Origin: Immundisolibacter sp.
GTDB lineage: Bacteria; Pseudomonadota; Gammaproteobacteria; Immundisolibacterales; Immundisolibacteraceae
Assembly (NCBI RefSeq): GCF_014359565.1
Contig: NZ_JACIZD010000002.1
Location: 124,001-188,000, forward strand
Reading direction: 5' to 3'
Length of the DNA stretch: 64,000 nucleotides
A model generated the notes under the pieces. That model ran no database searches. It was not told where the DNA came from and saw nothing but the letters and a program-made list of their open reading frames with translations. Position numbers and translations under genes: made by a program. This document shows, piece after piece, positions 25,709 through 60,020 of this stretch; within the stretch, counting starts at the first letter, position 1, and the number at the start of each line of letters is the position of its first letter.

Positions 25709-27154
25709 TTACCGTGTGCCGGCCTTGCGCATGCCCTGCGGGGTGAAGATTTCCGGGTCGATGGTCGAGTCCTTGAGCAGGCCGACCTTCGGCTGCCCGG
25801 CGCCAAGATTGCCATACCAGCCGAAGAACGTCGTGTAGCGGCCGTTGACCAGATCGACCAGCTGATCGCCCCAGATCAGGTGCGAGCGGCTGTCGTACAG
25901 GTTCAGCACGTAGGCCTCGCCCATGCGCCACAGGCGGTCGCGCGCATCGTAGGCCTCGTGGCCCATACCGTGCCAGGTGTCCTCGTCGATATAGGCCACG
26001 ATGCGCTTGTACAAGTGGCGCTGCCCGGGCTTGAGTGTGGCCTCCACCTCCCACACCCGGTGCAGCTCGTAGCGGATCAGGTCCTGGTTGACGTGCTTCT
26101 TGCCGAACAGATCATCCGGCCGCTTGCCTGGATCGGCCAGCGCGTAGGAGTTGTAGGGCACGAACAACTCCTTCTTGCCGTTGAGCTTCAGATCGTGGCG
26201 CGACTGCTTGCCAGCAAACCACCACTGCCAACGCGAGGAAACCGTACGCTGGCCGTCCGAGCCGAACGATGGGCTGTCCTGAAAGCCGATTTCCGGCGCC
26301 TTGCGTATCCGTCGCTGCCCGGGGACGTACAGATAGGACTGGAAGTCGAATTCCTGCGCGAAGTTGCAGCCGCCACCGATCAGCCCCGACTGGCGCGGCG
26401 GCTGCTTGACCTGAAAGGCGTCGCACAGCAGCGGACCGCCACGGCTGTGAAACCACTCGCTGGCCGGGCGCTCGGCCTTGGGCACCCACCACATCCACGA
26501 CTGCCACTGTTCCATGATCACGTCGACACGATTGCCGAGCGAATCGACCAGCGGCGCGTCCATGAGGCCCTCGATGGCCTGGCCCTGGTAGGCGAGGTAG
26601 TGGTTCCAGCCCACCTCGAAGGCGTTCTTCGGGATCGGGAACGGGTAACCGCCGCCGTCGACATGGTTCTGCAGGCACACATACCCTTCGGTGTCCCAGC
26701 CGGGGCACAGTTCCGCATGCAGGGCCTGCCGGGCGGTCGCCTCGTACACCCAGTCCGAGAACGATGCGCTGCGCCGGGTCGGGTACACGTGCATCCGGAA
26801 ACTGTCCGGATACTGTTTGAACATGGCAACCTGACCAGGGGTCAGTTTGTCCTGGTACTGGGCGTAGTTCTGGGCCGTGATGGTAAACAGCGGCTTGTCG
26901 TCCGGGAACGGATCGACCCAGGGGCCGCCCGGCTTGAAGTTGCCCGGCGGCTGCAGGATGCCGCCGGTCCACTCCGGAATGCTGCCATCGGCGTTCCCGG
27001 CGCGCTCGGCGCCGACTGGAGTCAACGGTGTACCGGTCAGGCCGAGCGCAGCGGCCTCCTCGGCCGTGATCTTGGCCCACGCCGTGCCGGCGGTGGACAG
27101 CGAAAGCGCCCCTGTCAGCGCCGCCGCAATCATTCGCAGTCGTCGATTTTTCAT
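25709..27154 (-). CDS. DUF1329 periplasmic protein, copy 4 (type B)
   Basis: A 481-residue exported protein: signal peptide MKNRRLRMIAAALTGALSLS ending at AWA, mature start KITAEEAAALG. Motifs common to all four copies are LTPVGAERAGNADGSIPEW, DDKPLFTITAQNYAQY, VYPTRRSASF, YVPGQRRIRKAPEIGF and NQDLIRYELHRVWEVE. No lipobox is seen, so it is probably soluble in the periplasm. From memory DUF1329 is grouped with LolA/LolB-like lipid-carrier folds. DSPSFGSDGQRTVSSRW and the QPPRQSGL motif ally it with copy 3, not with copies 1 and 2. It follows exporter copy 2 by 44 nt; AAAGGAC precedes the ATG. The longer open frame upstream is not coding. Confidence 0.88.
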   Translation of the reverse strand: MKNRRLRMIAAALTGALSLSTAGTAWAKITAEEAAALGLTGTPLTPVGAERAGNADGSIPEWTGGILQPPGNFKPGGPWVDPFPDDKPLFTITAQNYAQYQDKLTPGQVAMFKQYPDSFRMHVYPTRRSASFSDWVYEATARQALHAELCPGWDTEGYVCLQNHVDGGGYPFPIPKNAFEVGWNHYLAYQGQAIEGLMDAPLVDSLGNRVDVIMEQWQSWMWWVPKAERPASEWFHSRGGPLLCDAFQVKQPPRQSGLIGGGCNFAQEFDFQSYLYVPGQRRIRKAPEIGFQDSPSFGSDGQRTVSSRWQWWFAGKQSRHDLKLNGKKELFVPYNSYALADPGKRPDDLFGKKHVNQDLIRYELHRVWEVEATLKPGQRHLYKRIVAYIDEDTWHGMGHEAYDARDRLWRMGEAYVLNLYDSRSHLIWGDQLVDLVNGRYTTFFGWYGNLGAGQPKVGLLKDSTIDPEIFTPQGMRKAGTR

Positions 27155-27198
27155 GTCCTTTCCCCTCTCGTGCGGTGCGAATCGTGCAGGTGCCGCCC

Positions 27199-29571
27199 TC
27201 AATGCGCCATGACTCTCCCGACCTGCCGCCGGTCGCCGACCAGCCACACGGCAATGGCCGGCATCAGGAAGATGGCGCCCAGCATGTTCACAAAGAACAT
27301 ATAGGCCAACAGTACGCCCATGTCCGCCTGGAACTTGAGCGACGAGAAATACCAGGTCGCTACGCCAAGACTCATTGTCGTGGCCGTGAACATGACCGCG
27401 CTGCCGACCTCGCTGAGCGATCGCGCGTAGGCCTCCGCGAACTTCAGTCCGGCCGCCAGGTGCATCTGTGTGCGGGCAAACAGATAGATGCCGTAATCGA
27501 CTCCCACACCGACACCAAGGGCCAGGACCGGCAGGGTCGAAACCTTCAGGCCGATGTTCAGCCACACCATCACCGCATCCGCGAACACGGTCACCAATGC
27601 CAGCGGGATCATCACTGCCAGCGCTGGCCGCCAGGAGAAAAAGGTCAGCAGACAACACATTCCAACCGCAACATAGAGAATGACCGCCATGCCCAGTTGC
27701 GACTCCTCCACCGCCTCGTTGGTGGCCGCCATGATGCCGGCATTGCCCATCGCGAGCTTGAAGGTAACGTCGGGATTGGTGTTGCTGGCCTGAAAATCCT
27801 TCACTGCCTGAATGATCGGCCGCAGCGTCTGGGCCTTGTGATCGACCGGATAGATCGTAACCGGCATGATCGAACAGTCGTTGTTGAACAAGCGCTCCGA
27901 CATCTCGACGCGATAGATGTTGGCGGAAATCATCTCCTCATTGCGCGGCAGGCCGAGGAATTTCGGGTTGGCCTCGAAATTCCCGACGTTGCGCTCGCGC
28001 ACCACCTGCGACAGGGACTTCACGGAGCGCACACCCGGCACATTGCGCACATGCCAAACGAAATCGTCGATCGTCTCCATGACCGGGTAATCGACACACC
28101 CGTTGGGCTTCGAGACCTGAGCAATTACCACCAGCTCGTCCAGACCGACGGTGAACTTCGACACGATGGCCCGGATGTCTTCGTTGTAACGCGAATCCGC
28201 CCGGAACTCCGGAGCGCCGGCCTCGGCATCGCCGATGATCAGTGCGCGCCGCTCGATGACACCCAGCACCAACAAGCCGGCGCTGATGACCAGGATCGCC
28301 AGCGAGACCGGCTTGCGTGCCCCGGCCGCGAGCCACTCCAGGGCGGTACCATCCGTGTTCTTCTGCGGCGCATTGGAGCGCGCCAACTCTGCCGGGCTCA
28401 TCTTCAGATAGGACAGCATCACCGGCAGCATGAACTTGTTGGTGATCAACATCACCGCCACGCCGATGCTGGCCGTGATGCCAAGCTCACGGATGATGGC
28501 GATATCGATCACCGTTATGACCGCAAAGCCGGCCGCATTGGCGACCAGCGCCGTAGCGCCCGGGATGAACAGCCGGTTGAACGCCTGCCGGGCCGCCGCC
28601 TTGGAATCGAGGCCCGCGGCGACGCCCAGCCGCCAGGCATTGGTCATCTGTACCGCGTGGCTCACACCGATCGACAGCACCAGGAACGGCACCATGATCG
28701 ACAGAGGATCCACGCCATAGCCGACCAGCTTGATGGATCCCAGTTGCCAGATGACGGCAGCAATCGATACCAGAATCGCCGCCGTAGCGAGCTTCCAAGA
28801 GCGTGCGAAAAAAATCAGTAGAATGTAGGTGATCGCCAGCGTGATGGCGAAGAAGCCGATCACGTCCTGCGCACCGTCGATCATGTCGCCGATGAACGTC
28901 GCAAAGCCGATGATGCGGATATTGACTCCACCCTCGGCTTCGTACTTGCTGCGAAGTTGCTCCAGCTTTTGCGCCATGGCCCGGTAGTCGACCTTGCTGC
29001 CGGTAACCGGGTCGACCTCCACCAGCTCGGCGATCACCAGTGCACCGGACAAATCCTTGGCCACGGTCCGGCCGATCTCGTTGGAACGGGACAGATTCTC
29101 ACGAACCGTCGCGAGCCCATCCTCGGTGGCGACAAAATCGGCCGGAACGATCCGCGAGCCGGTGAATCCCTCCTCGCTGACCGCGACGTAGTTCACGTTC
29201 GGCGTGAACAGCGACGTCACAGTGCGAACGTCAATGCCGTCCATGGTCAGGACGTCCTGCGTGACCTGCTCCAGAACCGTGAAAAACTTCGGGTTGAACA
29301 TGTCGCCGCCTTCGTCTTCCACGAAGATCGTGATCATGTTCGAGCCACCAAACTCGGGCTTGTACTTGGTGTAGGTCTCCATGTACGGGTGGGACAACGG
29401 AATCGACTTATCGAACCCGGGATCGAGCCGTTGATGCAATGCGTGATAGGCAAAGAAAACGGTGATGGCTACCGTGACGACCAGCACCCAAGCGCGGTAA
29501 CCGAGCAAAAAATCCGCAATGGCGGAAGCGACTCGTTCCAGACGCGCGTTATAGCCAGCGACTTGCGCCAT
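27199..29571 (-). CDS. RND/MMPL-family exporter, copy 2
   Basis: Inner-membrane transporter of 790 residues with the duplicated RND layout: one N-terminal helix, a large periplasmic loop (about 45-230), a block of five helices, a second helix and loop, and five terminal helices. It belongs to the single-polypeptide predicted exporters related to MMPL and HpnN lipid transporters rather than to tripartite drug pumps. The proton-relay positions are asymmetric: SIGVSHAVQMTNAW has His305 in the first half, and GVGVDYGIYLFAR has Asp692 in the second. The AGGGG site precedes the ATG by about 9 nt. It follows the YCF48 gene and precedes DUF1329 copy 4. Confidence 0.88.
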   Translation of the reverse strand: MAQVAGYNARLERVASAIADFLLGYRAWVLVVTVAITVFFAYHALHQRLDPGFDKSIPLSHPYMETYTKYKPEFGGSNMITIFVEDEGGDMFNPKFFTVLEQVTQDVLTMDGIDVRTVTSLFTPNVNYVAVSEEGFTGSRIVPADFVATEDGLATVRENLSRSNEIGRTVAKDLSGALVIAELVEVDPVTGSKVDYRAMAQKLEQLRSKYEAEGGVNIRIIGFATFIGDMIDGAQDVIGFFAITLAITYILLIFFARSWKLATAAILVSIAAVIWQLGSIKLVGYGVDPLSIMVPFLVLSIGVSHAVQMTNAWRLGVAAGLDSKAAARQAFNRLFIPGATALVANAAGFAVITVIDIAIIRELGITASIGVAVMLITNKFMLPVMLSYLKMSPAELARSNAPQKNTDGTALEWLAAGARKPVSLAILVISAGLLVLGVIERRALIIGDAEAGAPEFRADSRYNEDIRAIVSKFTVGLDELVVIAQVSKPNGCVDYPVMETIDDFVWHVRNVPGVRSVKSLSQVVRERNVGNFEANPKFLGLPRNEEMISANIYRVEMSERLFNNDCSIMPVTIYPVDHKAQTLRPIIQAVKDFQASNTNPDVTFKLAMGNAGIMAATNEAVEESQLGMAVILYVAVGMCCLLTFFSWRPALAVMIPLALVTVFADAVMVWLNIGLKVSTLPVLALGVGVGVDYGIYLFARTQMHLAAGLKFAEAYARSLSEVGSAVMFTATTMSLGVATWYFSSLKFQADMGVLLAYMFFVNMLGAIFLMPAIAVWLVGDRRQVGRVMAH

Positions 29572-29619
29572 GGCATTGATCCCCTGAGACAGATACCAAC
29601 GAATTGAAACAACCCCGCC

Positions 29620-30582
29620 TCAGCGGGGCAGCAGTTCAGCGAGCGGCAGTTTCGTGACGCCCCCGCCCAGGCCAGCGAGATAGGCATCATCACCCACGAC
29701 CAGCACGGCGTTGATACCGACACCGCCCGGACGCGTGGCGACCCGTGCATCGGCGGAGCGCGGATCCACGACCAGCAGCACCCCGCCCGCCCCGACGATC
29801 AGCACGCGCCCGTCGGCCAGCACTGCCGCATCCAGCAGGAATTGCTCGGTATTCGTGCGCACCTGCTGCCATGACGTGGCGCCATCGGCGGACTCGAACA
29901 CGTGGCCTTTCATACCGTAGATCAGGAACTTGCCCCCGGCCAAGGTCAGCGCACCGAAGTAGGAGCCCGCATAGGGCGATACGATGGGGGAGAAGTCGGA
30001 CCAGCCATCGGGTGAGCGATACAGCACGCCCTTCTCGGCAACAGCCAGAGTCACCCCATCCGGCAACCAGGCAATGTCGAAAATATGGTTCTGGTACCAG
30101 TCTTCCACCGCCAAGGTACGTCGATCCCAGACGGCTCCGCCGTCCTTGGTAATCCACAGTTGGCCATTGGCGCCGACCACATACCCCGTATTTGCGTCCC
30201 GAAAACGCACGTTGAGCATCACATTGCGCGATTCCGGATCGAAAGAAACCACCGTCCAGCTTGCACCGGCATCGGTGGTCTTCAAAATGACCGCGTCATG
30301 CCCAACGGCATAACCGGTTTTGTCATCGACGAACGCAAGTGCGGTCAGGGTGCTGCGCGTCGGCACCTCGGCCTGTGTCCAGGCGGCACCAGCGTCATCC
30401 GAATAAATGATCACACCGCGCTCGCCGGCCGCAACCACCCGATCAGCGGCCCTCGCGATGTCCAGAAAAACCACCTTCGTGGCCAGTGGCGCCTTGAGCG
30501 CCGGTCGCGGCTCAGCCGCGAAGACATCGCGTCCGCCGCACAGCAATAACGCCAGCAACACGCCACCGAAAAGACGTAACAT
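29620..30582 (-). CDS. YCF48/BNR-repeat beta-propeller protein, copy 2
   Basis: A 320-residue exported protein with signal peptide ending near DVFA (MLRLFGGVLLALLLCGGRDV). It has repeated Asp-box motifs: YSDDAGAAW, KTTDAGASW, ITKDGGAVW, plus degenerate RSPDGWSDF and ESADGATSW. This predicts a periplasmic beta-propeller related to the photosystem II assembly factor YCF48/HCF136, a family common in non-photosynthetic bacteria beside exporters. A scaffolding or assembly role is inference. Start ATG 30582 (or GTG 30585) follows AGGGGGA. Its last repeats are more degenerate than those of copy 1. Confidence 0.82.
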   Translation of the reverse strand: MLRLFGGVLLALLLCGGRDVFAAEPRPALKAPLATKVVFLDIARAADRVVAAGERGVIIYSDDAGAAWTQAEVPTRSTLTALAFVDDKTGYAVGHDAVILKTTDAGASWTVVSFDPESRNVMLNVRFRDANTGYVVGANGQLWITKDGGAVWDRRTLAVEDWYQNHIFDIAWLPDGVTLAVAEKGVLYRSPDGWSDFSPIVSPYAGSYFGALTLAGGKFLIYGMKGHVFESADGATSWQQVRTNTEQFLLDAAVLADGRVLIVGAGGVLLVVDPRSADARVATRPGGVGINAVLVVGDDAYLAGLGGGVTKLPLAELLPR

Positions 30583-30693
30583 CACTCCCCCTTTTTTGCC
30601 ACCATCATCTGACCGCAGAAGACACCCGACGGCCGCGCAGCGCCGCCGGGAAACTGGACATACAGTCGAGCCGCACGCAACCGGCCCGAGCCC

Positions 30694-32154
30694 TCAACGT
30701 GTCCCGAACTTGCGAAGACCCTGCGGCGTAAAGACAGACACATCGACGGACATCTCGTCCGTGGTCTCGAACTTCGGCATGCCAAAGCCGCCCGCCTTGC
30801 CCGCCGCAACGTGCCAGTAAGGGTAGGTGGTATAGCGCCCATTTATGAGATCGATCTGCGAGTCACCCATGATGCGCTGAATACGCTTGTCGTAAATATT
30901 CAGGTTGTACTGTTCGCCCACTCGCCACAGTCGATCTCTGGCATCGTAGGCCTCGAATGCAACCCCCATCCAGGTGTCCTCGTCGAAATAGGCTACGTGC
31001 CGTTTGTACAGATGTCGAAAACCGGGTTTCAGTTCACCGTCGATCACCCACACCCGGTGCAATTCATAGCGCAGCAGGTCCTGGTTGATGTGCTTCTTTC
31101 CATAGATATCGTCATAGGTGAGATCCGCACCGGCAATTTTGTAAGCATTGTACGGAACGAAAACCTCCTTGCCTTTTTCCATCTTGTAGCTGTGGCGCGG
31201 CTCCTTGCCGCCAAACCACCACATCCAGCGGGATGACACGGTTCGCTGGCCATCAGAGCCAAACGACGGGCTGTCGTGAAAGCCGATTTCCGGCGCCTTG
31301 CGCACCCGCCGTTGGCCCGGGATATACAGATAGACCTGAAAATCGGTATTCTGGGCATACATGCAGCCGCCGAACACCAGCCCGGACGAACGCGGTGGCT
31401 GCTCGATCTGCCAGGAGTCGCAAAGGAATGCGCCGCCCCATTGCGTGAACCACTCGTTGGTTTGTTTCTTGTCCGCCGGCACCTGATAGGGCCAGTACTC
31501 GCGCGAGCGGATGATCACGTCCGTGCGATTGCCCAGCGAATCGATCAGTGCGCCGTTACCCATGGCGTCCATTGTGGTGCCGCTGTAGTGACCCAGCAGC
31601 GTGTTCCAGCCGGCCTCCTCGGGGATCTTGGGGATCGGGAACGGCACCCCGCCGTTGGGCTGCACGTCGACCAGGCACATCTCGTTCTTTTGCGCGTACT
31701 GCGGGCAAATGTCGATACTCTTGGCCTGAACCTTCGTGGCCTCGACAAACCAGTCCGGATAGGAGGCGCTGCGACGGGTCGGATACACGTGCATCCGGAA
31801 GGTATCCGGGTACTGCTTGAGCATCGCAATCTGACCCGGCAGCAGATTCTTCTCGTACTGCTGGTAGTTCTGCGCCGTGATGGTAAACAACGGTTTGTCG
31901 TCCGGGTATGGGTCGACCCAGGTGCCACCCGGCTGGAAATTGGCCGGGGGTGACTGAATGCCTCCCGTCCACTCAGGTATGGTGCCCGCTGCGTTGCCGG
32001 CGCGCGTCGCGCCAACTGGAGTGAGCGGTGTTCCTGTGACACCAAGCTGCGCAAGCTCCTCGTCGCTCAGCTTGGCGTTCGCAGCACCAACAATCGACAA
32101 TCCCGCCAATGCCGCCACTGCCGCGCAGCGGCGGGTACTGTTGACAAAAAACAT
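30694..32154 (-). CDS. DUF1329 periplasmic protein, copy 3 (type B)
   Basis: A 486-residue exported protein, signal peptide MFFVNSTRRCAAVAALAGLS ending at ANA, mature start KLSDEELAQLG. It shares the four-copy motifs (DDKPLFTITAQNYQQY, VYPTRRSASYPDW, YIPGQRRVRKAPEIGF, NQDLLRYELHRVW). Its middle section, CDSWQIEQPPRSSGLVFGGC and DSPSFGSDGQRTVSSRW, matches copy 4. GGAGG lies 8 nt before the ATG. It follows DUF1302 copy 2 by 40 nt, the usual DUF1302-DUF1329 pairing. Role is inferred as periplasmic carrier or partner of the outer-membrane protein. Confidence 0.88.
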   Translation of the reverse strand: MFFVNSTRRCAAVAALAGLSIVGAANAKLSDEELAQLGVTGTPLTPVGATRAGNAAGTIPEWTGGIQSPPANFQPGGTWVDPYPDDKPLFTITAQNYQQYEKNLLPGQIAMLKQYPDTFRMHVYPTRRSASYPDWFVEATKVQAKSIDICPQYAQKNEMCLVDVQPNGGVPFPIPKIPEEAGWNTLLGHYSGTTMDAMGNGALIDSLGNRTDVIIRSREYWPYQVPADKKQTNEWFTQWGGAFLCDSWQIEQPPRSSGLVFGGCMYAQNTDFQVYLYIPGQRRVRKAPEIGFHDSPSFGSDGQRTVSSRWMWWFGGKEPRHSYKMEKGKEVFVPYNAYKIAGADLTYDDIYGKKHINQDLLRYELHRVWVIDGELKPGFRHLYKRHVAYFDEDTWMGVAFEAYDARDRLWRVGEQYNLNIYDKRIQRIMGDSQIDLINGRYTTYPYWHVAAGKAGGFGMPKFETTDEMSVDVSVFTPQGLRKFGTR

Positions 32155-32194
32155 CTTCGCATCCTCCGGAATCAGCCAAGCGCTCCGCGCCCGC

Positions 32195-33841
32195 TCAGAA
32201 TGAGTAACTCGCATTGAACGACAGGAAGTCGCGGTCGTTGGTGCCATTGTAGGGGCTGGCCGCCGCGTTGAAATCACCCTGCGGCCCAAAGAAATTTGTG
32301 TAACTGATACCACCTGTCCATTTTCCACCACCGTACAGGAAGCCCAGGCCGACCGTGATCGCCTTGCGGTCATCAACCACCAGCTTGGCACCGCCCAGTT
32401 CGTTCGAGAAGCCGTGCAGATCCCAGCTGAACGCCACGCTCGGCTCCAGCGCGATCAGGTTGAACAAGGCTGCGTTGTAGGTAAGTGAATGCCGAACCAC
32501 CAGTTTCCCGAAATCCTTGCTGATGTCCGGCTCGAACAGCTTCGAGGAATCCGGAAGCCCGCCAATCCAGCCCCACATCACTTCCGCCACGGTGGCATTG
32601 GCATCGGCCTTCAGCCACTGCGTCACGCCCCAGTTCTTGTTGACGGAGAACTGCGCCTGGTGGCGCTCGATGCGGTCGAATCCCCGTATGGTCGCCCCCG
32701 GCGCCAAACCCGGCGCAAGGCCGGCGCCTTGCAACAGCGGCCCGAGCAGCTGAATTGGCGCATTTCTCCGCCACGAATACTCGCCACTGAGCGCAACACC
32801 GGCAAGGTTGGTGTTGAACGAGACGCCGAACCGCTCGACATTTTCGGGATATTCGATGAAGAACCGGCCGCCCGGCCCCACCGCGTTGCGCGTGACCGAC
32901 AACGACGGCAGATGATCGTGCATGTTCTGATAATAGAACCCGACCTCGCCGCCGTTGCCAAAGCTCGGCAGGAACATGCGAAGCGCCAGACCCCATTGGC
33001 CGCCGTAGGAGGGAATGTCGTCCCCGCTCCTCACGAGACGGCCGCCCAGCAGGTCGCAGGGCTTTCCGTCGGGCGCGATACAACGCGGATTCATCCCGGG
33101 GGGCACATTGACGAATGTACTGCCGCCGAAACCACCGAGTGCATTCGGAAAGCCGCCACCGTCGGAAATCGCATCCAAAGTCCCGAAGAAGCTGCCCATC
33201 GGATCGACCTTGATCTCGTCGTACCCGAACAGGTAAAAACCTTCGAGCGTGTAGTTCTCGGCGAAGGTATAAGCAATGTCGATGGCCGGCGTGCCCAGGT
33301 ACGCGTCCTTCAGGTCGGACCCGGGCGTGCGCAGCTTGGAGATGTCAACGGTGTTGACGTCGGAAATAGCCTGCCCGATGAAGGTACTCTCGCCCCAGGA
33401 AATCACCTGCTTGCCCAGACGAACCGACAGGTTCTGATCCGGCAGCAGATACTTGTAAACGTAGGCGTCCGTGATGTCGCCATGCTGTTTGGCACGGTTC
33501 TCGGCGGCATCCGGCAGATTCTGGTTCGCCATCTCGAAATCGTAGAACCAGTTGCCACGCACCAGGCCACCGAAGCTGTCACCCTTCACCTCGAGGGTAT
33601 GGGAACCCTTGATAGCGTTCGAGAATATGTCCCACTTGTCCTGGAACAGATAGCGATTGGCGTAGACGCCCTGGTTCAGGGGATCGGGCTTGGCCGTACG
33701 CATCGAAAGCCCCCAGGTGAGGTCCGTATCGAACGCCGCCTCCAGCTCCCCGATCTTGAAGTCCACTGCCGGCGCCGAGGCCGAAATGAAGGCCGCGGCA
33801 CCGGCCGCAACCGCTGTGCGTAATTGCATGCGCTTGGTCAT
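32195..33841 (-). CDS. DUF1302 outer-membrane beta-barrel-like protein, copy 2
   Basis: A 548-residue exported protein. The signal peptide covers about the first 25 residues (MTKRMQLRTAVAAGAAAFIS). The mature part is rich in alternating aromatic strands and ends ...LSFNASYSF, a C-terminal phenylalanine typical of Bam-assembled outer-membrane proteins. Shared with copy 1 are NRAKQHGDITDAYVYK, VRLGKQVISWGE, NTVDISKLR, LFGYDEIKVDP and GDDIPSYGGQWG. AGGAGGG precedes the ATG at 33841. It opens the second module, 92 nt after exporter copy 1. Predicted function is a channel or fatty-acid-transporter-like barrel for a hydrophobic compound; not proven. Confidence 0.87.
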   Translation of the reverse strand: MTKRMQLRTAVAAGAAAFISASAPAVDFKIGELEAAFDTDLTWGLSMRTAKPDPLNQGVYANRYLFQDKWDIFSNAIKGSHTLEVKGDSFGGLVRGNWFYDFEMANQNLPDAAENRAKQHGDITDAYVYKYLLPDQNLSVRLGKQVISWGESTFIGQAISDVNTVDISKLRTPGSDLKDAYLGTPAIDIAYTFAENYTLEGFYLFGYDEIKVDPMGSFFGTLDAISDGGGFPNALGGFGGSTFVNVPPGMNPRCIAPDGKPCDLLGGRLVRSGDDIPSYGGQWGLALRMFLPSFGNGGEVGFYYQNMHDHLPSLSVTRNAVGPGGRFFIEYPENVERFGVSFNTNLAGVALSGEYSWRRNAPIQLLGPLLQGAGLAPGLAPGATIRGFDRIERHQAQFSVNKNWGVTQWLKADANATVAEVMWGWIGGLPDSSKLFEPDISKDFGKLVVRHSLTYNAALFNLIALEPSVAFSWDLHGFSNELGGAKLVVDDRKAITVGLGFLYGGGKWTGGISYTNFFGPQGDFNAAASPYNGTNDRDFLSFNASYSF

Positions 33842-33933
33842 GTTTTTCCCTCCTCTGCGTTCCATTAACCACGAACACCGGCGCGCGTGGCCGGCACCAG
33901 GCCGACCCGCGCGTCAAGTATAGTCAGCCGCAC

Positions 33934-36309
33934 TCAGTGCGACAGCCCGCGCGTCGACACCCGCTCTTTCTCGACGTCAATCAGCCATGCCGCCAGCGCC
34001 GGCAACAGCACGACGGCGCCGACCATGTTCACGAAGAACATATATGCCAGAAGCACGCCCATGTCGGACTGGAACTTCAAATCCGAGAAGAACCAGGTCG
34101 CCACCCCGATGGACATGGTGCTGGCCGTGAAAATTACCGCCGTACCGGACTGCTTGAGGCCCTCATAATATGCATCCTTCAGACTCAGGCCGCGGCGGAT
34201 GTGCGCCTGGGTGCGGGCGAACAGATAGATGCCGTAGTCGACGCCGACGCCGACGCCCAACGCCACCACCGGGAGCGTGGAGACCTTCAGGCCGATGTTG
34301 AGCAGCACCATCACCGCGTTGGCGAGAATCGACACCAGCGCCAGCGGCAGCAGGATGCACGCCGATGCCCGCCACGACAGGAACGTGAGGTAGCACAGAA
34401 AGCCCACCGTCACGAACAGGGCACCCATCATGGTCAACTCGGCGCGCTGAACCGCCTCGTTGGTGGCGGCCATCACGCCCGCCGGGCCCAATGCCAGTCG
34501 GAATGCGACTTTCGATCCGTCACCCTCCTCGGGAACCCGGAAACTCTTGACGGCCTCGATCACCCGCTGCAGCGTCGGCGCCTTGTGGTCCCACAGGAAG
34601 ATGCGTATGGGCAGCGCTTCGCAGGTGTCGTTGAAAAGCTTCTGGCTCAGCTCGATGTTGCGCATCGCCGAACCCAAACCGGCGGCCGTCCGTGGCAGGC
34701 CATAGAACTTGATGTGCCCCTCGTTGTTGCCGACGTTGCGGTCCTTCATCACCTGCGACAGCGTCGCAACCGACTGCACGCCATCGACATTGCCCACGTG
34801 CCATACGAAGCGGTCAATTGTCTGCATCACGCCGAAGGTGTTGCAACCATCACGTGGCATCTCGGCAATCACTGTCAGTTCGTCGATACCGACATTGAAG
34901 TTACTGATGATGGCCTTGATGTCCTGGTTGTAACGGGCATCGGGCCGGAACTCCGGTGCCCCTACCTCGCTGTCGCCGATGATCAATGACTGCCATTTCC
35001 ACCAGCCCAAGCCGAGCAGGACAACGGCGACCAGGATGACCCCCGTGCCGCGCCGCCGATCCGCGAAACCGGACAGAAAACGGAAAAACGGCTTTTCCTG
35101 CTCGAGAACCCGGGCGCGGATCCGCTCGACGGTGCGCGGCTTCATGCCGGCGTAGGACAACAGCACCGGCAGCATGAACTTGTTGGTGGCCACCATCACC
35201 GCGACACCGATGCTGGCCGTGATGCCGAGTTCCTGGATGATGTCGATGTCGATGATCATGATCACGGCAAAGCCGACAGCATTGGCCAGCAGCGCCGTGG
35301 TGCCCGGGATAAACAGCTTGTTGAATGCCTCGCGCGCCGCCGTGCGCGAATCCGCACCGCCCAGGATTTCCAGCTTCCAGGTGTTGGTCATCTGGATGGC
35401 GTGGCTGACGCCGATCGACAGAATCAGGAACGGCACCAGAATCGACAGTGGGTCAATGCCGTAACCGAGCAGCCGGATCAAACCAAGCTGCCAAACCACC
35501 GCCGTGACGGCGACCAGGATCGCCAGTACCGTGATCTGCAGCGAGTTCGAATAGAAGTACAGCATCACGCCCGTGATCGCAACGGCGATGACGAAGAACA
35601 GCACCACCCCCAGCGCGCCCTGGATCACATCGTCGATGAACTTGGCAAAGCCGATGATCTTCACGTCGACGTTGTCGCTGCCATACTTGGCCCGAATCTG
35701 CTCGAGCGCGGCCGCCACCTGCGTGTAATCGAGCGGCTGGCCCGTGGCGGGGTCCTTGTCCACCAACTCGGCCCGGATCAGGGCACCGCGAAAGTCATGC
35801 GACACCAGGCGCCCGACGTGCTGCGAAACCAGCAGATTGCGCCGCACTTGCTCGATGCTCTCCGGGCTTGGCTTGAAGTCAGGCTCGACCACGCGGTGGC
35901 CGGCAAAGCCCTCTTCGTTCACCAGCACGTAGTCGACGTTCGGCGTGAACAGCGAGGTCACCGACGACCGGTCGACGCCCTTGATGAACAGCACATCCTG
36001 GGTGGCCTTCTCCAGCGTCTTGAAGAAATCGACGTTGAAGATGTCGCCTTCCCTCTGCATCAGGGCCACGATGATCACATTGGCCCCACCGAACTGATCG
36101 GTGTACTGGGTGTAGGTCTTCATGTACGGGTGGCCAAGCGGGATGGACTTGGTGAAACCCGGGTCCATTCGCAGGAACGATGCCTGGTAGCCCAGAAACG
36201 CCGTCAGCAGCGTGAGCACGACCAGCACCGCGACACGGTAGCGGATCAATGCGTCTGCCAGCCAGCCGGACACGCGCGTCATCGCGCTCGCGTAATTAGA
36301 CGTCAGCAT
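33934..36309 (-). CDS. RND/MMPL-family exporter, copy 1
   Basis: A 791-residue inner-membrane transporter, clearly paralogous to copy 2 along its full length (compare DPGFTKSIPLGHPYMKTYTQ with the same region there). It has the same two-half RND architecture and asymmetric relay residues, His303 in SIGVSHAIQMTNTW and an Asp in GVGVDYGIYLFAR near the C-terminal third. Start ATG 36309 with GGAG 5 nt upstream; an internal ATG at MTRVSGW is possible but less likely. It follows YCF48 copy 1 by 32 nt. In lipid-exporting relatives such proteins extract substrate from the outer leaflet of the inner membrane; the substrate here is unknown. Confidence 0.88.
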   Translation of the reverse strand: MLTSNYASAMTRVSGWLADALIRYRVAVLVVLTLLTAFLGYQASFLRMDPGFTKSIPLGHPYMKTYTQYTDQFGGANVIIVALMQREGDIFNVDFFKTLEKATQDVLFIKGVDRSSVTSLFTPNVDYVLVNEEGFAGHRVVEPDFKPSPESIEQVRRNLLVSQHVGRLVSHDFRGALIRAELVDKDPATGQPLDYTQVAAALEQIRAKYGSDNVDVKIIGFAKFIDDVIQGALGVVLFFVIAVAITGVMLYFYSNSLQITVLAILVAVTAVVWQLGLIRLLGYGIDPLSILVPFLILSIGVSHAIQMTNTWKLEILGGADSRTAAREAFNKLFIPGTTALLANAVGFAVIMIIDIDIIQELGITASIGVAVMVATNKFMLPVLLSYAGMKPRTVERIRARVLEQEKPFFRFLSGFADRRRGTGVILVAVVLLGLGWWKWQSLIIGDSEVGAPEFRPDARYNQDIKAIISNFNVGIDELTVIAEMPRDGCNTFGVMQTIDRFVWHVGNVDGVQSVATLSQVMKDRNVGNNEGHIKFYGLPRTAAGLGSAMRNIELSQKLFNDTCEALPIRIFLWDHKAPTLQRVIEAVKSFRVPEEGDGSKVAFRLALGPAGVMAATNEAVQRAELTMMGALFVTVGFLCYLTFLSWRASACILLPLALVSILANAVMVLLNIGLKVSTLPVVALGVGVGVDYGIYLFARTQAHIRRGLSLKDAYYEGLKQSGTAVIFTASTMSIGVATWFFSDLKFQSDMGVLLAYMFFVNMVGAVVLLPALAAWLIDVEKERVSTRGLSH

Positions 36310-36341
36310 GACTTCTCCAGAACGGTGTGTTGCGCGAGCGC

Positions 36342-37334
36342 TTACTTGATATCGAGGGAGATGCTGCGGACACCACCCTCGCCGAACGCGAGCCAGGTTC
36401 CATCGCGCTTTTGCAGGAGGCGGGCGAACTTGCGCCGCTCCGGCTGGGACATGAGTTCGAAGCTCTCGCCACCGTCCCGGCTCACCGCGATGGCGCCATC
36501 GAGGCCGGCCAGCACCACCGCGCCGCCGGCGGAAATGGTGGCCGACATGAACGACTTGTCGGTGCCCGTTGGCACCAGGCGCCAAGTGGAACCGTTGTCG
36601 TCGCTGACGGCCACGTGGCCTAGCATGGCGAAGGCGACGACGCGACCGGCGCTGGTCGTGATCACGCCGAAAAAGGACCCGCGGTAGGGGCTGTCCAGCT
36701 GCGTCCAGGTGGCGCCGCCGTCGTCGGACCGGTACAGAACGCCCTGTTCGGAAGCCAGAAAATAGCTTCCCGACGGCGACTTGCTGATCCCGAACAAATG
36801 GCTGTCAAAATCATCGCGCGTCAGAACCACCTGGTTGGTCCAGGTCTTGCCGCCATCGTCGGTACGGAAAAGGTTGCCGCGTCCGCCGACGGCCAGACCC
36901 GATGTCGCTGACTCGAAATAGACATCCAGCAGCGGCACGTCGAGGTCCGGATCGGCATGCTGCAGGACCCAATTGGCGCCCCCGTCCTCGGTGGCCAGGA
37001 TCACCGCGTCGTGCCCGGTTGCCCAGCCATGTTTGGCGTCGACGAAGCTCACCGACGTCAACGTGACATCGACCGGCACCACGGCCTGCAACCAGTTCTG
37101 GCCCTGGTCGTCCGAGTACAGCACGATGCCGCGTTCGCCGACCGCCACGATGCGCTCGCCGGCATGCGCGGCATCCAGCAACAGCGCCTTGGACACTTTC
37201 GGCCCGGTAGCCGCCGGCTGCGCGCCGATCAACTCCACCCCGCGCGCGGGCAGGGCTAGCCCGCCGCCGATGAGCAGCATCCCAAGCAGCGTGAACAGTA
37301 CACGCGAGCTGATCATCTTGATCGAGTTCAACAC
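36342..37334 (-). CDS. YCF48/BNR-repeat beta-propeller protein, copy 1
   Basis: About 330 residues with a signal or anchor helix (SSRVLFTLLGMLLIGGGLAL) and six well-preserved Asp-box repeats: YSDDQGQNW, ATEDGGANW, RTDDGGKTW, RSDDGGATW, VSDDNGSTW and VSRDGGESF. This is a periplasmic beta-propeller of the YCF48 family. The GTG at 37334, after AAGGGGG, is preferred; an ATG at 37316 lacks a ribosome site. It is followed 32 nt later by exporter copy 1. It is paralogous to copy 2 with the same position before the exporter, which suggests a dedicated partner of the RND protein. Confidence 0.82.
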   Translation of the reverse strand: MLNSIKMISSRVLFTLLGMLLIGGGLALPARGVELIGAQPAATGPKVSKALLLDAAHAGERIVAVGERGIVLYSDDQGQNWLQAVVPVDVTLTSVSFVDAKHGWATGHDAVILATEDGGANWVLQHADPDLDVPLLDVYFESATSGLAVGGRGNLFRTDDGGKTWTNQVVLTRDDFDSHLFGISKSPSGSYFLASEQGVLYRSDDGGATWTQLDSPYRGSFFGVITTSAGRVVAFAMLGHVAVSDDNGSTWRLVPTGTDKSFMSATISAGGAVVLAGLDGAIAVSRDGGESFELMSQPERRKFARLLQKRDGTWLAFGEGGVRSISLDIK

Positions 37335-37365
37335 GGACCCCCTTGAATCAGTTCCTGATACATAA

Positions 37366-37414
37366 GCGCGCAAATTCCCCCGTAAGGGGCTTGCAACCGA
37401 CACCATTTGCGCGC
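37366..37414. repeat. Large inverted repeat between DUF1329 copy 2 and YCF48 copy 1
   Basis: Perfect 10-bp arms GCGCGCAAAT (37366-37375) and ATTTGCGCGC (37405-37414) enclose an inner stem CCCC/GGGG (37377-37380 with 37386-37389, loop around GTAA). As RNA it would fold into a long hairpin in the 175-nt intercistronic gap. No T-run follows on the minus strand, so it is not a classic terminator. It may be an mRNA processing or stabilising hairpin, or an operator. Confidence 0.6.
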
Positions 37415-37509
37415 CGTCTCGGCGTGACAGTAAGCGCATGCGCCGGCAGGCGGCAGCCAGGGACGGTCGCCCCAACACATGAGACGACCGTACTCAACGC
37501 AACCCGCAG

Positions 37510-38961
37510 TCAGCGAACCCCATACTTGCGCAGACCGGCTGGCGTCATCAGGTCCGGATCAGGCTTGCCAGAAGGCGAGAAATCCGGCGGGAAGGTGCCG
37601 AGCTTCGCGCCCTGGTTGAAGTAACCGTTGGTGCCGGAATGGCGGCCGGAGATCAGGTCCGAGTGGTCGTCGCCCCACCAGTGCACCATCGGCACGTTGT
37701 AGTAATTGAGCAGATATGCCTCCGACACACGCCACAGGTTGCCCTGCGCATCGTACATATCGGCAAGCGCCGCGGCCCAGCTGTCCTCGTCCACGTACAC
37801 CAGGCGATGCGGGCCAAGATGACGGAATCCTGGTTTCAGCTTGCCCTCAATGACCCAGACGCGGTGCAGCTCGTAACGCTTGATGTCCGAGTTGACGTGG
37901 CCCTTGCGCACGATGTCCTTGAAGGTGTACTGCGGGTCGGCCAGCTTGTAGCTGTTGTAGGGGATGTACATCTCCTTGCGCACCGGCGGCGACCAGTCAT
38001 ACCACTCCTCGTCACCGGTCTGGGCGAACAGGTTGCGGGCATCGGCCGTGCGCAAACCATCGGAGCCGGTGCCGGGGCTATCGTAGAAGCCGATCTCCGG
38101 CGCCTTGCGCACCCGCCGTTGACCCGGCACGTACAGGTAGGCATCGAAATCGGTTGAGCTGAAATAGTTGCAGCCGCTGAACATGGTGCCCGCAGTGCGC
38201 GGGGGCGCCAGGTCTTCCTGCGAGAAGCACCAGGCGGCGCCGCCCTTGCGGTCGTACATTTCTCCCTTGGGTTTTTCGTCCCCAACCAAGAACAAGGGGA
38301 ACAACCAACGCTCACGCTTCACGTGCTCGGCATAATTGCCATCCGGAAACGCATTGAAGCCATACGCAACCGTCGTGAACCACTTGCCGAAGAAGTAGAA
38401 CGTGTGGTTGTACATAAGCTCCCCGCCATCCTTGGGAATGGGGAAGAACACACCCGGACGATAGGTCTCCTGCTTCACGCAGCGCTGGGCTGTGTTGGGT
38501 CCACCCGGAGGGGGGTTGCACCAATCGGTGTTGGTTGCGTTCCAGATCGAATTCTCATACAGCCACTGCGGATATGAGGCACTGCGCCGACTCGGATAGA
38601 CGTTCATCTTGAACGTGTCCGGATACTTCTTGAGCATCGCGACGGTGCCCGGCGACAGCTTGTCCTCGTACTGCTGATAGTTCTGCGCCGTGATGGTGAA
38701 CAGCACCTGGTCGTCCTTGTAGGGATCCACGTACCACTTGCCGTCCTCGTAGCCGGCGGGCGGCGCCTTGATGCCGCCATCCCAGGCCGGAATGCTGCCG
38801 TCGGCGTTGCCGGCGCGGACGGCGCCGACTGGCGTCAACTCCGTCCCCTCCAGGCCCAGCTTGGCCGCTTCCTCAGGCGATACCTTGGCGACAGCCGCCC
38901 CGGCAAATAACGCCGCCGCTCCGGCAACGGCAAGGCCGGCGATGATCGGTAAATTTTTCAT
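37510..38961 (-). CDS. DUF1329 periplasmic protein, copy 2 (type A)
   Basis: A 483-residue exported protein: signal peptide MKNLPIIAGLAVAGAAALFA ending at AVA, mature start KVSPEEAAKLGLEG. It carries the shared motifs (LTPVGAVRAGNADGSIPAW, QVLFTITAQNYQQY, YVPGQRRVRKAPEIGFYDSP). It also has type-A features shared only with copy 1: WNATNTDWCNPP, AAWCFSQEDLAPPR, GHVNSDIKRYELHRVW. Start ATG 38961 has only a weak purine-rich site (GAGTGA); a GTG at 38970 is possible. It follows copy 1 by 107 nt, so module 1 has two tandem DUF1329 genes. Confidence 0.88.
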   Translation of the reverse strand: MKNLPIIAGLAVAGAAALFAGAAVAKVSPEEAAKLGLEGTELTPVGAVRAGNADGSIPAWDGGIKAPPAGYEDGKWYVDPYKDDQVLFTITAQNYQQYEDKLSPGTVAMLKKYPDTFKMNVYPSRRSASYPQWLYENSIWNATNTDWCNPPPGGPNTAQRCVKQETYRPGVFFPIPKDGGELMYNHTFYFFGKWFTTVAYGFNAFPDGNYAEHVKRERWLFPLFLVGDEKPKGEMYDRKGGAAWCFSQEDLAPPRTAGTMFSGCNYFSSTDFDAYLYVPGQRRVRKAPEIGFYDSPGTGSDGLRTADARNLFAQTGDEEWYDWSPPVRKEMYIPYNSYKLADPQYTFKDIVRKGHVNSDIKRYELHRVWVIEGKLKPGFRHLGPHRLVYVDEDSWAAALADMYDAQGNLWRVSEAYLLNYYNVPMVHWWGDDHSDLISGRHSGTNGYFNQGAKLGTFPPDFSPSGKPDPDLMTPAGLRKYGVR

Positions 38962-39068
38962 AACAATCACTCAAATAGGCTTGAAGTCATTTCTTGAAAC
39001 CCGATACCGGCACCCAGTCAAAGAGGGCGCGGCATAGAGAACCAACAATGTCATTGAAATCACATTTT

Positions 39069-40505
39069 CTAGCGCATTCCATACTTGCGCAATCCAGCTG
39101 GTGTCTGAACATCAGGGTCCGGCATGACGTGGTAATTGATCAAGTCACCGGGATTGCCGCTGATATTCGGCCAGCCGGCATTGGAAGCATGCCTGCCGTT
39201 GATCAGGTCGGAATGATCGTCGGCAAAATGATGAACGGTTGGTACGTCGTAGTAATTAAGCAAATAGCCCTCGGACACGCGCCACAGGTTGTCCTGTGCA
39301 TCGTACATGTCGGAGGCTACCCCGGCCCAGCTGTCTTCGTCTATGTAAGTGACGCGGTGTGGCGACAGATGCCGAAATCCTGGCTTGATCTTGCCTTCGA
39401 TGGCCCACACCCGATGCAGCTCATAACGTATAAGGTCCGAATTGACGTGACCAGGTCGCACGATGTCCTTCATGCCGATTCCCGGCTGCGCCATTTTGTA
39501 GGCGTTGTACGGCACGAACATCTCCTTTCGCTGCGCCGTCCACGTGTACCATTCCACGTCACCGGTCATGGCGCCCATGTACTTTGAGTCCGCCGTGCGC
39601 AGGCCGTCGGAGTTGGTGCTCGGGCTGTCATAGAAGCCGATTTCCGGCGCCTTGCGCACCCGGCGCTGGCCGGGCACGTACAGGTAAGCGTCAAAGTCGG
39701 TGGTCTCGAAATAGTTGCATCCGCCGAAAATACTGCCCGCGTTGCGCGGCGGCGCCAGGGTTTCCTGCGAGAAGCACCAGGCTGCCCCGCCGTTACGGGT
39801 GAACACGTCACCCTTCGGTATCTCATCCGGATTCATGGCCGAAGGCACGATCCAGCGCTCGCGCGTGGCGAATTCGGCATAGGTGCCATCGGCAAACGCA
39901 TTGAAACCATAGTGCGTGACTGTGTAGAACTTGCCAAACCAATAATAGGTATGGTTCCACATCGCCTCGCCGCCGGTCTTCGGTATGGGGAAGAAAATCC
40001 CTGGCCGGTATACCTCGCGCTTGACGCACCGCTCCTCACGGTCCTTGCCCAGCGGCGGGTTGCACCACTCCGTGTGCGTCGCGTTCCAGATGCTGTTCTC
40101 GTAGACTTCCTTCGGGTAGGACGCGCTGCGCCGCGTCGGGTACACGTTCAGCTTGTAGCTGTCCGGGTATTTTTTCAGCATCGCGATCTGACCGGCTGAC
40201 AGCCTGTCCTTGTACTGCTCGTAGTTCTGCGCCGTGATGGTGAACAGAATCTTGTCGTCCGCATACGGATCGATATACCAGCCGCCCTGGGTGTAGCCCG
40301 CGGGTGGCGTCTTGATGCCGCCATCCCAGGCGGGGATGCTGCCGTCGGCATTGCCGGCGCGGATCGCGCCCATCGGCGTCAGCTCGGTGCCCTCGATGCC
40401 GAGCTTGGCCGCTTCTTCCGGCGACACCTTGGCACTCGCCATCAGCGGCACACCCGTACACGCCACGGCAAGCGCCAGGCTCGCCGCCCATTTCACCCCT
40501 TTCAT
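39069..40505 (-). CDS. DUF1329 periplasmic protein, copy 1 (type A)
   Basis: A 478-residue exported protein: signal peptide MKGVKWAASLALAVACTGVP ending at ASA, mature start KVSPEEAAKLGIEG. It is strongly similar to copy 2 throughout, including WNATHTEWCNPP, AAWCFSQETLAPPRNAG and GHVNSDLIRYELHRVW. This points to a local tandem duplication after the type A and B lineages split. GGGGGAA precedes the ATG. It lies 65 nt after DUF1302 copy 1. Probably a soluble periplasmic partner of that barrel. Confidence 0.88.
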   Translation of the reverse strand: MKGVKWAASLALAVACTGVPLMASAKVSPEEAAKLGIEGTELTPMGAIRAGNADGSIPAWDGGIKTPPAGYTQGGWYIDPYADDKILFTITAQNYEQYKDRLSAGQIAMLKKYPDSYKLNVYPTRRSASYPKEVYENSIWNATHTEWCNPPLGKDREERCVKREVYRPGIFFPIPKTGGEAMWNHTYYWFGKFYTVTHYGFNAFADGTYAEFATRERWIVPSAMNPDEIPKGDVFTRNGGAAWCFSQETLAPPRNAGSIFGGCNYFETTDFDAYLYVPGQRRVRKAPEIGFYDSPSTNSDGLRTADSKYMGAMTGDVEWYTWTAQRKEMFVPYNAYKMAQPGIGMKDIVRPGHVNSDLIRYELHRVWAIEGKIKPGFRHLSPHRVTYIDEDSWAGVASDMYDAQDNLWRVSEGYLLNYYDVPTVHHFADDHSDLINGRHASNAGWPNISGNPGDLINYHVMPDPDVQTPAGLRKYGMR

Positions 40506-40570
40506 GGCTTCCCCCGAATCATGAAGAAAAAGGGCCGGTGCCAACCCCAGCACCGGCCCACGTCGTTGCG

Positions 40571-42382
40571 TCAGAACGTGTAGCTCACATCCAGTGACAG
40601 GAAGTCGCGGTCGGTGTTGTTGACCGGGCGGCTGCCGTTCGGACGCCACTGGTCGTTATCGCCGTCGAAGATGAAGGTCTGGTTGATGCCCAGCTTCCAA
40701 TTCAATGCATAGTCGAAGGTCACCCCGACCGACAATTGCTTGCGACCGCCAATGAACAGCGTCGCCCCGCCGAACTCGGGCGACACGCCCTCTACGTCCC
40801 ACTTCAAGGCGGTGTTGAAGTCCATGTTGATGCGGTTGAACAGAATATTGTTGTAGGTGAGCGTCGAGCGGGCCACGAAGCCCCAGAAGTGATTGGTGAC
40901 ATCATCAAAGCGAAGGAAGCCGCCGCCCGCGATAGCCGCCGCCGCCAACTGCGCAGGGGTATAGGCAGGCGCCCTTTCGTGACCATTGAGGTCAATACCC
41001 GGCATATCCTCCGCCCAGCCGTAGGCGATTTCACCGATGGTATTCCACTGGTCCGCACCCAGCAGCATCGGCACCGGACCCCAGAGGCGCTGCGCGGTCA
41101 ACTGAACCTGATGGCGCTTGTAATCCTCGAAGCCGACATATTTCGTACCCGGGGCGTAGACATTGCCGCTCAGATCGCGGCCCGTCGCCGCCACAATCAG
41201 AAAATCCGTGTCCTGGAGCGGTGCATTGCGCCTATAGCTGTACTCGCCACCCAAGGCCCACGACCCCAGCGTGGTGTTGAAGCTCAAACCGTAACGCTCG
41301 ACATCCTTGGCATAGTCGACAAAAAACCGCCCTGGTTGTGGCACCCCGCCGACAACGGACCCGGCATATGAGGACAGCTGCGGGTTGTGGTCGTGCAGGT
41401 TTTGATAATACAGGCCAAAATCGAAACCGTTACCCAGATTCGGCGCGTAGTAACGTAGCGCCACGCCATACTGGCCGCCATACGACGGAATGTCGTCGCC
41501 GGCACGCGTCACCGGTATGCCACCCGGAGCCGCTAAATGACAGATTCCACCGTCCGGCGCCGCACAAATGGGAAACGGGCCACTCATCGCATTGGCAAAG
41601 CCACCACCATCGGTGATGACATCCTGGGTGCCGAAGAAACCACCATAAGGATCGACCTTCAGCTCGTCGTAACCAAACAGGACGAAGGTTTCCAGCGACA
41701 GCGCCTCATTCATCTGCCAACTGAAATACGCCGCCGGCGTGCCGACCAGGGCATCCTTCAGCTCAATACCGGGCTGACGTAATTTGGAAATATCAACAGT
41801 ATTGATATCGTTCAATGAACCACCGATGAAGGTGTTCTCGCCCCAGGAAATGACCTGTTTGCCCAGACGCACCGTGAACTGGTCGGCACTGCCAAAGCGG
41901 GTCAGGAAATAGGCGTCGGTGATGTCGCCGTGCATGATGGCGCGGTTCTCCGCGGCATCCGGAAGACTGTCCTTCTCGCTCGCCATGGCGAAGTCGTAGA
42001 AATAATTGCCGCGCATGAACGCGCTCCAGCCTTGGCCGTTCACCTGCAGGTCATGCGAGGCCTTGACCAGGTTGGAGAAGATGTCCCATTTTTTGTTGAA
42101 CAGTTCGCGGTTGCCGTACTGTACGTTGCCGAGCAGCAGCCCAGCCTCGGTCTGGCCCGGCGCCCAGCGGCTGGGATGGGGAATGGTCAAGGACGGGTCC
42201 ATCTTCTCGGTCCGCAGTTGCAGACCGTAACCCAGCGTGGTGTCGAAGGAACCCTCCACCGCGCCATCGAACAACTGAAAACTGGCGGCCTGGACAGCGT
42301 CGCCGGCTGCGGCGAGTGCCGCTGCAGCCAGCCAGTAACGAGCCGTGCGGGTCGGCGGCGTGACGTTCTTGCGTAATTTCAT
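40571..42382 (-). CDS. DUF1302 outer-membrane beta-barrel-like protein, copy 1
   Basis: A 603-residue exported protein. The signal peptide is cleaved near residue 32 (AVQA), and the chain ends LSLDVSYTF, the outer-membrane C-terminal signal. It shares NRAIMHGDITDAYFLT, VRLGKQVISWGE, NTVDISKLRQPG, LFGYDELKVDP and GDDIPSYGGQYG with copy 2, but is about 55 residues longer. GGAGGGG lies close before the ATG at 42382. It is the first gene of the ten-gene cluster and is divergent from kdsD across a 425-nt gap that carries a candidate promoter and palindrome. Confidence 0.87.
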   Translation of the reverse strand: MKLRKNVTPPTRTARYWLAAAALAAAGDAVQAASFQLFDGAVEGSFDTTLGYGLQLRTEKMDPSLTIPHPSRWAPGQTEAGLLLGNVQYGNRELFNKKWDIFSNLVKASHDLQVNGQGWSAFMRGNYFYDFAMASEKDSLPDAAENRAIMHGDITDAYFLTRFGSADQFTVRLGKQVISWGENTFIGGSLNDINTVDISKLRQPGIELKDALVGTPAAYFSWQMNEALSLETFVLFGYDELKVDPYGGFFGTQDVITDGGGFANAMSGPFPICAAPDGGICHLAAPGGIPVTRAGDDIPSYGGQYGVALRYYAPNLGNGFDFGLYYQNLHDHNPQLSSYAGSVVGGVPQPGRFFVDYAKDVERYGLSFNTTLGSWALGGEYSYRRNAPLQDTDFLIVAATGRDLSGNVYAPGTKYVGFEDYKRHQVQLTAQRLWGPVPMLLGADQWNTIGEIAYGWAEDMPGIDLNGHERAPAYTPAQLAAAAIAGGGFLRFDDVTNHFWGFVARSTLTYNNILFNRINMDFNTALKWDVEGVSPEFGGATLFIGGRKQLSVGVTFDYALNWKLGINQTFIFDGDNDQWRPNGSRPVNNTDRDFLSLDVSYTF

Positions 42383-51896: not shown

Positions 51897-52055
51897 GGGG
51901 CAGGAGCTCCTCGGTCTGTGAAAGGGCAATAGGCGGTCGGACTGGACTCTAGCACAGGCCATTGGGGCTGCTTTCGGGCGCTTTGGGCAGCGCAGCGGAT
52001 GGTAGTATCCCGCCCGTTACCGGTCGTTCAACCCAATCACCGGCGGGGGCTGGCG

Positions 52056-53216: not shown

Positions 53217-53307
53217 GCGTCACGGCCTTCGACCACCCCAACGACGGGCGTGCGGCCGTGATCGGTTGCATCGTTCGAGTATTTCACTGCATCAGGAGCA
53301 CCTCACC

Positions 53308-54486: not shown

Positions 54487-54621
54487 CCCCCTTTCGTCCC
54501 CCTGCGCCACCGCCCGGTGCGCGGTTCAGGAGCTGGCACGGCCTGCTCCTTGCCCGCTCCTTGAATGAACAGCCCTTCATCGCCCCCGGGCGGCTTCCCC
54601 CAAACCAGAGCGCCCCTGCGC

Positions 54622-55584: not shown

Positions 55585-55616
55585 CCCGGCCGCACACCGA
55601 ACCGAGGAGGCCCCGC

Positions 55617-57224: not shown

Positions 57225-57231
57225 GGCGGCC

Positions 57232-58023: not shown

Positions 58024-58024
58024 C

Positions 58025-60019: not shown

Positions 60020-60020
60020 C

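Follow-up and report, generated by a model that had tools for sequence, protein, structure and literature searches.

A 64,000-nucleotide stretch of the Immundisolibacter sp. genome (contig NZ_JACIZD010000002.1, positions 124,001 to 188,000; hereafter the window) carries at positions 25709-42382, on the minus strand, a run of two DUF1302, four DUF1329, two YCF48-like and two MMPL/RND genes. Given that composition and gene order agree with those of the AmeABCD cassette, we conclude with high confidence that the ten genes are two AmeABCD-type modules in tandem. Each module encodes an RND protein together with DUF1302, DUF1329 and YCF48 proteins and keeps the order DUF1302-DUF1329-YCF48-RND, with an extra DUF1329 gene after the first one in module A (transcription order DUF1302, DUF1329, DUF1329, YCF48, RND) and after the RND gene in module B (DUF1302, DUF1329, YCF48, RND, DUF1329). 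An earlier sequence-only reading had placed ten genes on one strand in exactly this order, which gene calls and Pfam matches bore out; its statement that the set has no named function did not hold, as the cassette has been named AmeABCD (PMC6394551). The modules are real and coherent, of the AmeABCD kind and in an unusual double layout. Closely related systems are already known from other bacteria, where they have been tested in part, and what is new here is the tandem of two divergent modules with paired DUF1329 genes in each.

Gene content and predicted folds

All ten genes matched their families far above the cut-off in a Pfam profile search. The features of the run, in order of transcription, are as follows.

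40571-42382, minus strand: module A DUF1302, predicted outer-membrane barrel (AmeA-like); PF06980 E 1.6e-134, gene call, C-terminal Phe
40532-40559, minus strand: strong terminator-like hairpin (12-bp stem, then T run) just behind the module A barrel gene and ahead of A1; consensus scan only
39069-40505, minus strand: module A first DUF1329 (A1, AmeB-like), putative periplasmic LolA-like protein; PF07044 E 5.9e-100
37510-38970, minus strand: module A second DUF1329 (A2), 68% identical to A1; PF07044 E 1.2e-101
36342-37334, minus strand: module A YCF48-type beta-propeller (AmeC/PhnL-like); PF14870 E 1.4e-22, Ycf48 structures E 1e-21
33934-36309, minus strand: module A MMPL/RND inner-membrane transporter (AmeD-like, putatively HAE3); PF03176 E 1e-22, TIGR00921 E 2.1e-45, under the curated cut-off
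32195-33841, minus strand: module B DUF1302, predicted outer-membrane barrel; PF06980 E 4.7e-119, structure model, porin-like Foldseek matches
30694-32154, minus strand: module B DUF1329 (B1), predicted LolA-superfamily fold; PF07044 E 2.5e-96, structure model, LolA3 match
29620-30582, minus strand: module B YCF48-type beta-propeller; PF14870 E 4e-20
27199-29571, minus strand: module B MMPL/RND inner-membrane transporter with IGVSH in transmembrane segment 4 (TM4) and GVGVDY in TM10; PF03176 E 3.8e-23, motif alignment
25709-27133, minus strand: module B second DUF1329 (B2), last of the run; PF07044 E 5.6e-102

Intergenic gaps of 33-176 nt make a single transcript for the ten genes plausible, and the hairpin behind the module A barrel gene is possibly an attenuator that may raise barrel expression. 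Phe is the last residue of both DUF1302 proteins, and signal-like hydrophobic N-terminal stretches were seen in the DUF1302, DUF1329 and YCF48 proteins, in agreement with the C-terminal Phe and cleaved-type N-termini described earlier. Both RND copies matched MMPL at E ~1e-22 and gave additional Sterol-sensing and Patched matches, and the Pfam search detected neither a membrane fusion protein nor a TolC-type channel, the parts of an HAE1-type system, among the ten genes.

Structure prediction lent support to the layer-by-layer assignment of these proteins to the envelope that had been proposed from sequence. The model of DUF1329 protein B1 (predicted local distance difference test score, pLDDT, 88.2; predicted template modelling score, pTM, 0.89) matched LolA3 of Porphyromonas gingivalis (9tp6) in Foldseek with E 6.6e-14 and a template modelling score (TM-score) by target of 0.76, with further LolA-superfamily matches to 4z48 (a solved DUF1329 protein), 3bk5 and 3buu. 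DUF1329 is therefore predicted to contain a LolA-superfamily fold, as the LolA/LolB-like grouping had anticipated, and the LolA-type match leaves roughly half of the protein uncovered. The module B DUF1302 model (pLDDT 84.9), with ~18 strands of at least 8 residues, gave 308 PDB matches at E<=0.001, and the 50 listed were nearly all outer-membrane porins or barrels, including MOMP, AlgE, OprD-type and BenF-like porins; TM-scores of 0.34-0.58 point to a generic barrel rather than to a specific porin family. This long-strand barrel, the signal peptide and the C-terminal Phe are those of a predicted outer-membrane beta-barrel, again as anticipated. Searches with single DUF1329 and DUF1302 sequences against solved structures returned nothing significant and a profile gave a weak LolA match, and the YCF48 protein matched solved Ycf48 propellers (E 1e-21).

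For both RND proteins the best NCBIfam match was TIGR00921 (HAE3), at 155 and 131 bits and thus under its cut-off of 351.9. Solved HpnN and MmpL proteins were matched weakly by sequence, and the HpnN model scored 78 bits against a cut-off of 751.85. The TM4 motif IG-x-SH and the TM10 motif G-[IV]-GVDY were each present in 90/90 scorable RND relatives, a conservation that is partly built in because the patterns overlap those used to find these relatives. Upon alignment to HpnN, its TM4 Asp falls on Ser304, beside His305, and Asp692-Tyr693 of TM10 occupies HpnN's Ala-Phe positions; from His305 and Asp692 in this alignment one might guess at a His-Asp proton relay.

Co-occurrence, descent and genomic setting

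The sequence-only reading had made co-occurrence of the four families a check on its model, and two surveys found it. All three partner families lay within ~7 kb of the RND gene in 40 of 59 well-flanked RND relatives, with the order DUF1302-DUF1329-YCF48-RND in 37; a further 13 had YCF48-RND alone, and two DUF1329 genes at one locus occurred in none of the 59. These loci were found through the RND gene, so the survey tests the partners of RND and not the converse. Independently of these loci, among 104 Gammaproteobacteria genomes strong DUF1302 matches accompanied strong DUF1329 matches in 16/16 genomes, strong DUF1302 being present in 18 of the 104 (Fisher p ~6e-17, from match lists entered by hand and with a test that ignores kinship), and 17/32 strong DUF1302 genes had a strong DUF1329 gene within 2 kb. 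In many Gammaproteobacteria, short (~270 aa) and weakly matching DUF1329/LolA-like open reading frames adjoin distant RND genes (e.g. G050:C11, G042:C76 and G051:C1), which suggests a wider RND and LolA-like pairing.

The ten-gene layout recurred at locus L122 of strain TR3.2 (CP014671), a polycyclic-aromatic degrader of the same genus (PMC5054325), and a short contig of genome G001 preserves the greater part of it. An insertion with an integrase-core (rve) gene (L122 4793-5761) breaks the module A YCF48 gene of TR3.2, whose module B RND gene reads in two frames; the copies in the window are intact. The modules may therefore be partly redundant, or the frame change may be an error of sequencing.

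The two modules are related but, to judge from the trees, separately descended. RND-B is 61% identical to its Cycloclasticus counterpart, 56% to that of Rugosibacter and 55% to RND-A, and in quick trees module B grouped with Cycloclasticus and Rugosibacter, both genera that degrade polycyclic aromatic hydrocarbons (PAHs), for RND and DUF1302. Its YCF48 protein was nearest to Cycloclasticus, and its DUF1329 proteins had Rugosibacter among their nearest relatives, with B1 and B2 also close to each other. The module A DUF1302 and YCF48 proteins were nearest to G007, a genome from another family of the same order, which also joined the A1/A2 DUF1329 pair. A recent tandem duplication, with A and B as one clade of the genus, was rejected for RND by the approximately unbiased (AU) test at p 4.5e-6, a grouping chosen for testing after the tree had been viewed, and the DUF1302 and YCF48 trees oppose it as well. 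The earlier view that the set was co-duplicated as a unit was consequently overturned, and the agreement between gene types in the trees supports movement of the module as a unit.

The host genome (3.09 Mb, 27 contigs) has ten genes for DUF1329 and five for DUF1302 proteins. Its Ring_hydroxyl_A matches, 48 against 65 in TR3.2, are very numerous for a genome of this size, which fits an aromatic-compound specialist. A Rieske/ring-hydroxylase gene comes after a third complete, divergent DUF1302-DUF1329-YCF48-RND module (L116 7615-16674, on contig C1), whose RND protein is 29% identical. Ring-hydroxylase alpha genes adjoin a DUF1302-DUF1329 pair on contig C6 and a single DUF1329 gene on contig C4, and another DUF1302-DUF1329 pair comes after an HpaB-type hydroxylase gene, in each case directly and on the same strand (L117 7763-11797; L119 8199-11122; L115 2945-7494; gene calls at these GC-rich loci used the codon usage of the window). 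By position shuffling, the tendency of other DUF1329 genes to lie near dioxygenase genes was weak (p 0.03), though four loci look operon-like. Across the class, a general tie between the families and ring hydroxylases was unclear in a small sample, with ring hydroxylases in 5/15 carriers outside this order versus 3/15 genomes lacking a listed DUF1329 match.

Around the run itself lie, on one side, a molybdopterin-binding-domain gene, dksA, a NUDIX gene, the genes for EF-P and its modification, pntAB and nusA-infB, and on the other kdsD, a kdsC-like gene, lptA, lptB, rpoN, rapZ and a leucine-catabolism-like cluster. This last is of the leucine/isovalerate degradation type (51999-60938) and comprises acyl-CoA dehydrogenase, thiolase, carboxylase subunits, enoyl-CoA hydratase and HMG-CoA lyase.

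Direction and cargo

In other bacteria, related cassettes have been shown to be needed to grow on hydrophobic substrates or to tolerate them. Deletion of ameABCD in Castellaniella defragrans reduced growth on, and tolerance to, unfunctionalised monoterpenes and increased Nile Red accumulation under carbonyl cyanide m-chlorophenylhydrazone (PMC6394551). In Pseudomonas putida, PP_0765, PP_0766, PP_2018 and PP_2019 were required on Tween 20, with contacts between the proteins predicted by AlphaFold (PMC10866462), and a Delftia acidovorans Cs1-4 mutant of the YCF48 gene phnL grew poorly on phenanthrene, normally on pyruvate, and formed few vesicles (PMC3958437). Similar clusters are predicted to be co-regulated with aromatic genes, under aromatic regulators (PMC6449761).

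From gene content, folds and these phenotypes we infer a joint machine, and consider it probable that it moves hydrophobic molecules outward at the expense of the proton gradient. The AmeD-like RND protein would draw the molecule from the inner membrane or periplasm, and the YCF48 propeller would hold or assemble the pump as an assembly or adaptor part. DUF1329 would then act as a LolA-superfamily shuttle across the periplasm, and the DUF1302 barrel would pass the molecule through or into the outer membrane. In this relative of a PAH degrader, the system would likely clear the inner membrane of hydrocarbons or of hydrophobic intermediates, a reading favoured by the PAH-degrading genera nearest to module B, by the many ring hydroxylases of the host and by the other copies beside aromatic oxygenase genes. 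The trans-envelope hydrophobe conduit that the sequence-only reading had proposed as its working model thus gains support from co-occurrence, folds and the phenotypes of relatives, and none of the three outcomes it had named as refuting was observed, although its description of the set as nameless and co-duplicated falls away.

Several observations weigh against this outward reading. Uptake could also explain why growth on phenanthrene or Tween 20 needs these genes, and the evidence for efflux in Castellaniella is modest, as real-time Nile Red efflux was the same between ameABCD strains (PMC6394551). Modules A and B sit among housekeeping genes, with the nearest dioxygenase gene ~40 kb away, and 10/15 DUF1302/DUF1329 genomes outside this order have no ring hydroxylase; with no clear enrichment of ring hydroxylases in carriers, the general cargo of the cassette across the class is not aromatic.

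That commonness of carriers without ring hydroxylases would also suit a system that exports one of the cell's own membrane lipids to the outer membrane, for remodelling or vesicle formation during growth on hydrophobic substrates, which would leave the link to hydrocarbons indirect. The Delftia phnL mutant lost ~94-96% of its extracellular vesicle or nanopod material (PMC3958437), DUF1302 and DUF1329 are present in nanopods (PMC3110197), and the solved RND relatives by sequence include the HpnN and MmpL exporters. We nevertheless regard lipid export as unlikely, given that the ameABCD phenotype was specific to unfunctionalised monoterpenes and the dye, with normal growth on acetate (PMC6394551). 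The host genome, moreover, has no match to squalene-hopene cyclase (PF13243, the one family of sterol or hopanoid synthesis that the search covered), and since this match is missing a hopanoid cargo is unlikely; of the lipid, sterol or other hydrophobic cargo suggested earlier, the hydrophobic conduit stands and a hopanoid or sterol is improbable in this host. Import of poorly soluble substrates such as PAHs and long-chain esters, through the barrel and on across the periplasm to the inner membrane, would account for the poor growth of mutants on phenanthrene (PMC3958437) or Tween 20 (PMC10866462), and the authors of the benzene cluster study leave direction undecided (PMC13101534); on the other side, ameABCD deletion raised rather than lowered Nile Red accumulation (PMC6394551). 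Small hydrocarbons cross membranes unaided. Characterised RND pumps of this type, in addition, move their cargo outward, and together these points make import decidedly improbable. Mere chance neighbourhood, or a recent plain tandem duplication devoid of common function, would explain the tandem layout and nothing further; it is contradicted by the survey through co-occurrence and conserved order, by the layout kept in TR3.2 and largely in G001, and by the distinct lineages of A and B in the AU test, and we judge it extremely improbable.

Within the preferred outward reading, a more specific division of labour can be imagined, albeit as a speculation we think quite unlikely to be correct as a whole. 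In this PAH-degrading lineage two differently descended modules may have joined in one ten-gene operon, each gaining a second LolA-like DUF1329, so as to form a two-carrier relay in which one carrier is loaded by RND and the other docks at the barrel. Each module would then have its own kind of hydrophobic cargo, for example the parent PAH and its oxidised intermediates. Transport of hydrophobic pollutants and toxic intermediates over the Gram-negative envelope is poorly understood, and a double module in a PAH-degrader lineage, together with the complete genome of a cultured relative, offers a concrete system for asking what such modules transport, which way they do so and what part the LolA-like carrier plays.

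Comparison with known systems

Collectively, one conserved cassette ties together scattered reports on monoterpenes, Tween 20, phenanthrene and benzene. The HpnN hopanoid transporter (HAE3) is comparable in its RND/HAE3-like architecture and gives a weak sequence match; HpnN, however, lacks a partner cassette (PMC6394551) and has its Asp in TM4, whereas the Immundisolibacter sp. RND has it in TM10 and the host has no hopanoid cyclase match. The highly expressed 'nanopod' cluster of the methanogenic benzene degrader ORM2a (PMC13101534) combines DUF1329, YCF48, MMPL and a porin-like protein, but it includes universal stress proteins and belongs to a strict anaerobe living on benzene. In Delftia acidovorans Cs1-4, neighbouring DUF1302, DUF1329 and YCF48 (PhnL) genes also serve a PAH degrader; there they lie inside the phenanthrene degradation cluster and have been read in terms of vesicles and nanopods (PMC3110197, PMC3958437). 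The P. putida pairs PP_0765/PP_0766 and PP_2018/PP_2019 supply DUF1302, DUF1329, a periplasmic protein and an efflux transporter with a common phenotype, but from two separate loci and in growth on Tween 20. AmeABCD itself has the same four families in the same order, an RND protein nearest the HAE3 model and a host, Castellaniella, that handles toxic hydrocarbons; there a single module lies inside a monoterpene catabolic island, whereas Immundisolibacter sp. carries two modules, divergent from each other and each enlarged by one DUF1329 gene, in a housekeeping neighbourhood.

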